Positions 25,043 through 62,484 of a stretch of DNA of 64,000 bases are shown here, piece after piece. The notes under the pieces are model-generated. The model searched no databases. It saw only the letters and a list, made by a program, of their open reading frames with translations, and was not told where the DNA came from. The DNA comes from Halorubrum trapanicum (GTDB lineage: Archaea; Halobacteriota; Halobacteria; Halobacteriales; Haloferacaceae), in assembly GCF_002355655.1 (NCBI RefSeq), contig NZ_AP017569.1, positions 62,001-126,000 on the forward strand, written 5' to 3'. The stretch's first letter is position 1. The number at the start of each line of letters is the position of its first letter. Made by a program: the position numbers and the translations under genes.

Positions 25043-25147
25043 ACCGACGGGACTCCGATCGGTGACTGGGTCAACTACTTATAAATAGCTCTGCGGTGGC
25101 GCGCGCCTCCGAGCGCCCGAAGGGCGCGAGGAGCGCCGCGCGAGGGA

Positions 25148-25180
25148 GTCAGTCGCCGGAGCGAAGCGACGGCGACTGAC
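25148..25180 (+). repeat. Hairpin H2 of element A
   Basis: GTCAGTCGCCG (25148-25158) pairs perfectly with CGGCGACTGAC (25170-25180); loop GAGCGAAGCGA. The corresponding hairpin in copy B uses different arm sequences but is flanked by the same blocks. Confidence 0.85.
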
Positions 25181-25237
25181 GAGGCTGGGGAGGCGTGAGG
25201 TGCTGTGCGGGGCGGTGCGGGGTGGGACTCAAAGGGG

Positions 25238-25333
25238 CAGCCGCGAGGCGGCCGCTGGCGACGCAAGCACCGCAAGGAGTGAGCGGAGCGAACGACTGAG
25301 GAGCGCAGCGAGCGTGCGGCCGCCTCGCGGCTG
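25238..25333 (+). repeat. Long hairpin H3 of element A (18-bp perfect stem, 60-nt loop)
   Basis: CAGCCGCGAGGCGGCCGC (25238-25255) and GCGGCCGCCTCGCGGCTG (25316-25333) are exact reverse complements. The loop includes GCAAGCACCGCAAGGAG and GGAGCGCAGCGAGCGT, both conserved in copy B. Confidence 0.9.
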
Positions 25334-25498
25334 GGGCTTTGGCGGTGTTCGCTGTCGATCCGCGGTTAGCTATTTATAAACGAGCGGCTGGGGCTTTGGC
25401 GGTGTTCGCCGACGATCCACAGGCGACCATTTATAAGCGAGCGCCTGGGGCTTTGGAGGTGTTCGCCATCGATCCACAGTCGACTATTTATAAATAGA
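25328..25498 (+). repeat. Three tandem 57-bp repeats ending in TATA palindromes (element A tail)
   Basis: Units start at 25328, 25385 and 25442. Each begins CGGCTGGGGCTTTGG (CGCC in the third), continues GGTGTTCGC and GATCC, and closes with ATTTATAA before CGAGC or the terminal CTATTTATAAATAG. The copy B tail has the same 57-bp spacing between two of its TATA motifs. Confidence 0.88.
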
Positions 25499-37857: not shown

Positions 37858-37987
37858 ATAGAATTTAGGTGGCTGTGCGACCGTTTATAAATAGCTGGTG
37901 ACGGACTAACGATGAACACCGCTAGCGTCCCGGTCGCTCGCTTATAAATGGCTGGTGACGGATCGCCGGCGAACACCGCCAAAGCCC

Positions 37988-38091
37988 CAGCCGCGAGGCG
38001 GGCGCACGCTCGCTGCGCTCCTCGGTCGGTCGCTCGTTTCACTCGCTCCCTCCTTGCGGTGCTTACGTCGCCTGCGCCCGCCTCGCGACTG
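37988..38091 (-). repeat. Long hairpin H3 of element B
   Basis: Plus-strand arms CAGCCGCGAGGCGGGCGC (37988-38005) and GCGCCCGCCTCGCGACTG (38074-38091) pair over 18 bp with one wobble-type position. Compared with copy A, one C-G pair has become G-C. Confidence 0.85.
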
Positions 38092-38147
38092 CCCCTTTGA
38101 GTCCCGCCCGCCCGCGACCGCACAGCACCTCACACCTCCCCAGCCTC

Positions 38148-38196
38148 GTCGGGCGCGTCCTTCGGGCTCCCTTCGGTCGCCCTCGGAGCGCCCGAC
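38148..38196 (-). repeat. Hairpin H2 of element B
   Basis: GTCGGGCGC (38148-38156) pairs with GCGCCCGAC (38188-38196). It is in the same place as H2 of copy A and has the same flanks, but different arm bases and a longer loop. Confidence 0.8.
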
Positions 38197-38314
38197 TCCC
38201 TCGCGCGTGCGACTCGCGCCCTGCGGGCGCTCGTCGGCACGCGCCACCGCACCGCCGATCATTTATAAATAGATGTGCGACTCGTTCCCCGGCGAGCGCG
38301 TCGGGTACTCGCCC

Positions 38315-60960: not shown

Positions 60961-62484
60961 ATGGAGCTGTTCTGGCACCGACGGGACCTCAGGGTCGCCG
61001 ATAACGTCGGCCTCGCGGCCGCGTCGGGAACCGGTGACGCCGGCGGCGCAGGCGACGTGGACCGCGGGCCGGCGGCGCCCGTCTTCGTCTTCGATCCCGG
61101 CGTGCTCGACCACGCGAGCGACGTCCGGGTCCGCCGCCTGCTCGACGGGCTGGCCGCGCTCCGCGACGACTACCGCGAGCGCGGGAGCGACCTGCTCGTC
61201 GCGCGCGGCGACCCCGAGACCGTCCTCCCGGAGCTCGCCGCGGCGCTCGACGCCGAGCGCGTCGTCTGGAACCGCGACTACTCCGGGCTCGCCCGCGAGC
61301 GCGACGCCGGCGTCAGGCGCGCGCTCGACGCGGTCGACGTCGCGCGCGATGCCCGCCACGACGCGGTCCTCCACGACCCCGACGCGATCCGGACGAACGC
61401 CGGCGACCCCTACTCGGTGTACAGCTACTACTGGAAGAAGTGGACCGACCGCGCGAAAGCGGAGCCGGCGCCGACGCCGACCGGCGAAGACCTCGTCGAC
61501 GCCGACCGGCTCGCGGACGCGGTCGACGCCGTCGACGCGCTCGGCAGCGACGACGGAGCGGTCGCGGACGCCGCCGTCGGGGACCTCCCGACCCCCGCGG
61601 ACCTCGGCTTCGCGGAACCGGACGCGGATCTCGGCCCCGCAGGTACGGCTGCCGCTCGCGAGCGTCTCGACGACTTCCTCGACGAGGCCGTGTTCGCCTA
61701 CGAGGCCGAGCGCGACTACCCCGCGAAGGGGGCGACCTCGCGGCTCTCGGCGTTCTTCAAGTACGGCGAGATCGGGGTCCGGGAGGCGTACGCCGCCACG
61801 GAGGAGGCGATGGCCGAGGCGGAGTCCGACGCGCGCCCCGAGGACGCCCCCGAGCAGGTCGAGGAGTTCCAACAGCAGCTGGCGTGGCGGGAGTTCTACG
61901 CGCAGGTCCTCTTCCATAACCCCGAGGTGGTCACCGAGAACTACAAGACGTACGAGGAGGGGATCGAGTGGCGCGACGACCCCGAGGAGATCGCGGCGTG
62001 GAAGCGCGGCGAGACGGGGTACCCCATCGTCGACGCCGGGATGCGCCAGCTGCGCGAGGAGGCGTTCATGCACAACCGGGTGCGGATGATCGTCGCCTCC
62101 TTCCTCACGAAGGACCTCCTCGCCGACTGGCGACATGGCTACGACCACTTCCGCGAGCACCTGGCCGACCACGACACCGCCAACGACAACGGCGGGTGGC
62201 AGTGGGCGGCCTCGACGGGGACCGACGCGCAGCCCTACTTCCGTATCTTCAACCCGATGACGCAGGGGGAGCGCTACGACCCCGACGCGGAGTATATAAC
62301 GAGCTACGTCCCCGAACTCCGGGGGCTCGACGCCGACCTGATCCACGAGTGGCACGAGCTGTCGCCCACGCAGCGCGCGAACGCCGCGCCGGAGTACCCG
62401 TCGCCGATCGTCGACCACTCCGAGCGCCGCGAGGAGGCCCTCGCGATGTACAAGCGGGCGCGCGGCGAGGACCCGGATGACTGA
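60961..62484 (+). CDS. phr: Deoxyribodipyrimidine photolyase
   Basis: 507 aa. N-terminal photolyase domain MELFWHRRDLRVADNVGLAA with the antenna-binding fold; the FAD-binding region has GATSRLSAFFKYGEIGVREA, WREFYAQVLFHNP, YPIVDAGMRQLREEAFMHNR, RMIVASFLTKDLLADWRHG and DNGGWQWAASTGTDAQPYFR. All CPD photolyase signatures are present, with acidic insertions at about 20-37 and 165-215. Light-driven repair of UV damage. Near the Hrq1-type helicase and a PsiE gene. Confidence 0.94.
   Translation: MELFWHRRDLRVADNVGLAAASGTGDAGGAGDVDRGPAAPVFVFDPGVLDHASDVRVRRLLDGLAALRDDYRERGSDLLVARGDPETVLPELAAALDAERVVWNRDYSGLARERDAGVRRALDAVDVARDARHDAVLHDPDAIRTNAGDPYSVYSYYWKKWTDRAKAEPAPTPTGEDLVDADRLADAVDAVDALGSDDGAVADAAVGDLPTPADLGFAEPDADLGPAGTAAARERLDDFLDEAVFAYEAERDYPAKGATSRLSAFFKYGEIGVREAYAATEEAMAEAESDARPEDAPEQVEEFQQQLAWREFYAQVLFHNPEVVTENYKTYEEGIEWRDDPEEIAAWKRGETGYPIVDAGMRQLREEAFMHNRVRMIVASFLTKDLLADWRHGYDHFREHLADHDTANDNGGWQWAASTGTDAQPYFRIFNPMTQGERYDPDAEYITSYVPELRGLDADLIHEWHELSPTQRANAAPEYPSPIVDHSERREEALAMYKRARGEDPDD

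Follow-up and report, generated by a model that had tools for sequence, protein, structure and literature searches.

Scattered between the genes of Halobacteria is a repeat family that we read, at a probability of roughly 55%, as an ancient, vertically inherited component of the chromosome whose plus strand folds as a single strand, with the fold under selection. Pairing between hairpin arms is preserved across copies and across haloarchaeal families. Copies A and B, in which the pairing can be followed letter by letter, lie in the window, by which we mean the whole 64,000-nucleotide stretch of Halorubrum trapanicum contig NZ_AP017569.1 that was analyzed (positions 62,001 to 126,000 of the forward strand).

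Architecture of the element

Copy A runs from a TATTTATAA-like left end through hairpins H1 and H2, a G-rich linker and hairpin H3 to three tandem 57-bp units (Table 1). The consensus of 84 full copies has, in its 5' part, the AT motif, GGTGCGGTGGCGCG, H1, GCGCGAGGGA and H2, and in its 3' part GAGGCTGGGGAGG-G-rich-GGGACTCAAAGGGG, H3, GGGGCTTTGG.GGTGTTCG and one or more 57-bp units that end in TATTTATAA; element length is ~300-420 bp. The basal arms of H1 are almost invariant in the alignment. CAAAG (25230-25234) and CTTTG (25337-25341) form a short helix around a GGG/GGG internal loop (columns 7-11 with 125-129), and the H3 apex of copy A alternates 2-bp steps with tandem G.A mismatches and carries a GGA triloop.

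Table 1. Features of copies A and B, in window coordinates.
Feature	Position	Strand	Remarks	Basis
Element copy A, whole	25076..25497	+		nhmmer/blastn against own genome; repeats
Left AT motif	25077..25088	+	TACTTATAAATA; near-palindromic, TATA-box-like	
Hairpin H1	25099..25142	+	GCGCGCG..GAA triloop..CGCGC	folding; alignment
Hairpin H2	25148..25180	+	arms vary from copy to copy; read as an exchangeable module	
Conserved G-rich linker	25181..25237	+	GAGGCTGGGGAGGCGTGAGG...GGGACTCAAAGGGG	consensus
Hairpin H3	25238..25333	+	arms 25238-25255 / 25316-25333	
Three tandem 57-bp units	25327..25497	+	each with GCGGCTGGGGCTTTGG.GGTGTTCG and TATTTATAA	
Element copy B, whole	37939..38271	-	H2 38148-38196, H3 37988-38091	

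Copies from other haloarchaeal families have the same core, with GACTGAAAGGGG and GGGGCTTTC, and their H3 arms are wholly different in sequence with pairing retained. At one orthologous site across species, H3 takes two forms: in one the stem is long, and in the other a tandem G·A/A·G comes after 13 pairs. Four copies at site A in relatives (L162, L163, L166 and L183) hold additional hairpin cassettes inside the H3 apex, of the form TGGTTCGAGA...TCTCGTCATCACGA...TCGAACGA, with a different one in L183. Elements differ in their number of 57-bp units, from 1 up to at least 6, and the spacing of the units is exactly 57 in 67 cases. Every unit holds the TATTTATAA palindrome and repeats the H3 3' arm region, which could give the 5' arm alternative pairing partners. 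The linker has several plus-strand G-runs, in addition to the GGG/GGG internal loop of H3, and a G-quadruplex in this region is conceivable.

Distribution and inheritance

A 19-base motif from the 3' end of the element occurs 220 times in the H. trapanicum genome, whereas the reversed control gives 0. In this genome we placed about 126 elements, none of them overlapping a gene as predicted by a simple custom gene finder. Both strands are used equally. Lagging-strand insertion predicts a chromosomal strand bias, but element orientation shows no runs relative to replication and favors neither strand over the length of the chromosome. Motif sites with no more than one mismatch number 140, and all are on the main chromosome. 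Among 72,556 plasmid records, 5 have the element, each as a single copy; phage records gave 0 matches, and viral contigs gave 0 matches to the exact pattern. The 58-bp intergenic promoter repeats of the HF2 virus were rejected as relatives because their quoted conserved motifs differ.

The element is carried by 52/52 Halorubrum genomes, and a covariance model found the H3 core in 93 of 116 sampled Halobacteria. In a phylum-wide sample of 148 genomes, an H3 match was present in 19, all of them Halobacteria, and the sampled non-haloarchaeal genomes of the phylum gave no match to the model. The model used was R2, since the first model, R1, was misregistered and missed the lower stem; outside Halorubrum scoring covered the best candidates of each genome, so the figures there are not full copy counts. 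The repeat is previously uncatalogued: Rfam returned nothing at gathering score and chance matches alone at E up to 10, and the open literature searched held neither a haloarchaeal match for the motif nor a recurring name for the repeat.

Genome comparisons were built on the stretches around copies. Where such stretches are ~90% identical between species, most elements are common to both and stand at orthologous places. The site of copy A adjoins engB and is kept in most Halorubrum retaining the gene pair, with a few copies decayed. In Halorubrum alkaliphilum and Halorubrum sp. JWXQ-INN 858 (L271, L273), the same gene pair lies ~17-33 bp apart and the element is absent. The idea that orthologous copies are more alike than paralogous ones was dropped, the values being about 0.85 and 0.84-0.85.

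Active mobilization in trans, as of a non-autonomous transposon of the PATE, MITE or REPIN kind, would fit with more than 100 dispersed copies sharing common ends, with the element-free sites just described and with the few plasmids that have single copies. However, positions are conserved, no match came from viruses, and near-identical copies are absent, presence and absence having been compared at the species level; indeed, no pair of whole elements in the genome exceeds 94.5% identity. Nor do the sites compared show clear terminal repeats or target duplication. Moreover, the Y1 (RAYT) transposase (PF01797) was not found in four near-complete Halorubrum carriers (G009, G015, G019 and G045), and Y1_Tnp was rejected as an obligate partner. 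Active transposition is therefore, in our judgment, improbable. The sole Y1_Tnp gene (IS200-type) found in the genome is at chromosome 683859-684209, ~2 kb from copies at 686385 and 687426 (L085).

Base pairing and covariation

The H3 arms of copy A form 18 Watson-Crick pairs with no interruption. Relative to copy A, H3 of copy B (read on the minus strand) has a T·G wobble in place of C-G at pair 4, G-C in place of C-G at pair 15, and A-T at pair 19, where copy A has T/T; its other pairs are as in copy A. The H2 arms are GTCAGTCGCCG...CGGCGACTGAC in copy A and GTCGGGCGC...GCGCCCGAC in copy B, different at nearly every position, and each set pairs within its own copy between flanks (GCGAGGGA and GAGGCTGGGGAGG) that are identical in the two. 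The first-pass annotation had described the exact complement in H3 of copy A, the flipped pair and the wobble in copy B, and the nearly complete change of the H2 arms, and had these letters right. It had taken the pattern to mean that structure is kept and not sequence. For H3 this holds, on the evidence of covariation and of pairing across families; for H2 the support is weaker.

Covariation was assessed within the genome by a G-test with APC and a tree-based substitution-shuffle null, in a custom implementation rather than with R-scape. Seven pairs were significant (E<0.05), every one in H3, so that the covariation anticipated for both hairpins was found in H3 and at no pair of H2. Base pairs covarying beyond phylogeny, a hallmark of structured RNA, are thus present; covariation alone cannot decide between RNA and DNA, because DNA hairpins also covary. 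Across the first 12 pairs of 223 unique H3 matches, 93.9% of cells are Watson-Crick, versus 72% when arms are swapped between copies. In a cross-family set of 34 sequences, 96.3% of cells pair, compared with 79% after shuffling and 27-44% after sliding, and two-sided changes were seen at 16 of the 26 H3 pairs in these sequences from several families. At an orthologous site followed across species, H3 pairs 7-13 alternate among C-G, G-C, A-T and T-A, with few intermediates. The H2 end stem has a mean of 7.7 pairs versus 5.2 for swapped halves; in the corresponding test of the H1 end stem, the arms were barely distinguishable from swapped controls with that anchor. Arms that fail to pair, which would have told against a kept structure, occur in decayed copies only (for example, L173).

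Column permutation found significantly long tracts common to 76 pairs of copies, and the strongest of them cover H2, H1+H2 or the H3 apex; where rates vary along the element, this test can overstate significance. H3 of L107 and H3 of L114 differ by one base in 145. The sharing of hairpin modules as tracts between distant copies is thus supported statistically, and the simplest reading is that whole hairpins are exchanged as modules between them. Such exchange would explain the near-total difference between the H2 arms within identical flanks. What had been presented as compensatory change in H2 would accordingly be, in part, replacement of a whole module, rather than stepwise compensation alone.

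Complementary arms could also arise with no selection on structure, if hairpins formed at replication forks underwent correction by template switching inside the palindrome, mutation alone thereby keeping the arms matched. Two-base flips with few intermediates (208-228, 212-224) are what such a process would leave, and the H3 apex is inverted relative to the arms in L129 (2511-2636) and apparently also in L179, which points to recombination, or exchange, between arms. Yet template switching leaves unexplained the invariant unpaired blocks, the conserved GA/GA and GNA loops (see below) and retention both class-wide and at orthologous sites, and G.T wobbles remain uncorrected. We consider it an implausible account of the family.

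Loops and the folded strand

In the H3 apex, two-base-pair steps form a ladder with GA/GA tandem mismatches between them, and of 180 copies 136 end it in a GNA triloop; this count is not independent, GA/GA flanks having been favored in the search. Any base can stand at N, and the loop is closed by GC..GC, AC..GT or GT..AC steps. The apex tetraloops, about 23, are essentially all GNNA, with a pyrimidine at the third place in 22, and therefore not GNRA. Over all element hairpins, GNA makes up 25% of triloops, versus 4.7% in flanking DNA, and the GNYA:GNRA ratio is 24:12, reversed to 11:31 in the flanks. When GNA and GNNA loops are closed by two or more G-C pairs, they form extraordinarily stable DNA mini-hairpins, with a Tm of ~78 C for GCGAAGC (PMC4686876). 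The H3 apex agrees with these d(GCGAAGC)-type hairpins in the loop rule and the two closing pairs; they have been described as short DNA fragments and tools, whereas here such a loop recurs at the tip of H3 in a family of genomic repeats.

Mispairs in the lower H3 stem are G·T in 70 cases and A·C in 24, which marks the plus strand as the wobble-tolerating one; the bias is clean in this stem only, and H1 and H2, which are poorly aligned, do not have it. Both the loop counts and the G·T counts are weakened by the relatedness of the copies, which makes them not independent. The purine G.A motifs likewise indicate that the plus strand is the folded one, unlike in a symmetric cruciform. Together, the GNA/GNNA loops with their two closing pairs and the excess of GNYA over GNRA favor a folded plus strand of DNA, and from these sequence features we infer that the folding molecule is probably single-stranded DNA rather than RNA. 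Of the earlier proposal of an RNA or cruciform, the folded structure is retained, with the loops favoring plus-strand DNA over RNA and the G.A motifs telling against a symmetric cruciform. An RNA could also have GNA loops together with sheared G.A pairs, and with RNA energies the fold is good too (z -4.0). Folding energies make no choice between the strands; RNAalifold gives -224 for the plus strand and -195 for the minus strand.

The strongest competitor is a structured RNA, in which copies would be transcribed by read-through or from TATA-like ends and the plus-strand RNA would fold and act, for example, at 3' ends, in stability or in protein binding. The strong covariation, the RNAalifold values and the preference of the H3 stem for G.T over A.C are all compatible with it, as are plus-only pairs in the H3 extension that require G.U, the TATA-like character of both ends in Halorubrum and the enrichment of elements in convergent over divergent gene gaps (odds ratio 2.96, p 0.001). 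Against it, the loops are GNA/GNYA instead of GNRA/UNCG, TATA-like ends (the left AT motif included) were seen in none of the other-genus copies that were read, the upstream gene is directed into the element in only 64/124 cases, no commoner than away, and Rfam has no match. On balance we think an RNA unlikely.

Discussion

Like the REPIN/RAYT and REP/BIME repeats of bacteria, the element forms intergenic hairpins, in tens to hundreds of copies on a chromosome, and persists vertically; it shares with REPINs, whose transfer on plasmids is considered unlikely (PMC8049555), the character of dispersed, chromosomal hairpin repeats. It differs from REPINs in its ~300-420 bp, three hairpins, G-rich linker and tandem G.A steps, and in having one architecture conserved class-wide. 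Inspection of the 84-copy consensus found no REP unit, that is, no GTAG/GGAG-type head beside a short hairpin in inverted pairs. REPINs persist in E. coli genomes that lack RAYT (PMC8049555), and the failure to find Y1 in the four carriers therefore lowers the case for a REPIN link and does not exclude it. With the tested defining features of REPINs lacking, the element is not to be filed as a REPIN.

Among haloarchaeal elements, PATEs are likewise non-coding and palindromic, heterogeneous in sequence and free of inverted terminal repeats (PMC3119063). By description PATEs are linked to IS605-type ends and to movement between strains, whereas copies of the element are old and hold their positions; the element should not be filed there either. 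The SMRs and MITEs of Haloquadratum are also short, non-coding and dispersed, but SMRs span ~80-110 bp, are bounded by terminal inverted repeats and occur as near-identical copies (PMC3119063). The ends of the element described here bear palindromic TATTTATAA.

We favor a resident chromosomal family whose plus strand, when single-stranded, would form H1, H2 and H3 joined by the conserved G-rich linker. Single-stranded DNA may be exposed in, for example, replication, repair or transcription. The fold would be the selected feature, through recognition by a host protein or through a hairpin-dependent step of copying or exchange, and the repeat would behave as a REPIN-type resident population; no dedicated enzyme for it was found. 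More tentatively, the repeats may make up a class-wide system in Halobacteria, with over 100 chromosomal sites per Halorubrum genome at which one DNA strand folds into GNA mini-hairpins and G.A zippers, is recognized by a host machine of replication, recombination or chromosome organization, and has its hairpins exchanged as modules between sites.

The element is an abundant non-coding feature of Halorubrum chromosomes, conserved over most of an archaeal class. With hundreds of natural copies, covarying arms and fixed loop rules, it makes selection on folded single-stranded DNA versus RNA testable in vivo, and its copies offer a route to study the spread of modules from site to site in polyploid archaea.
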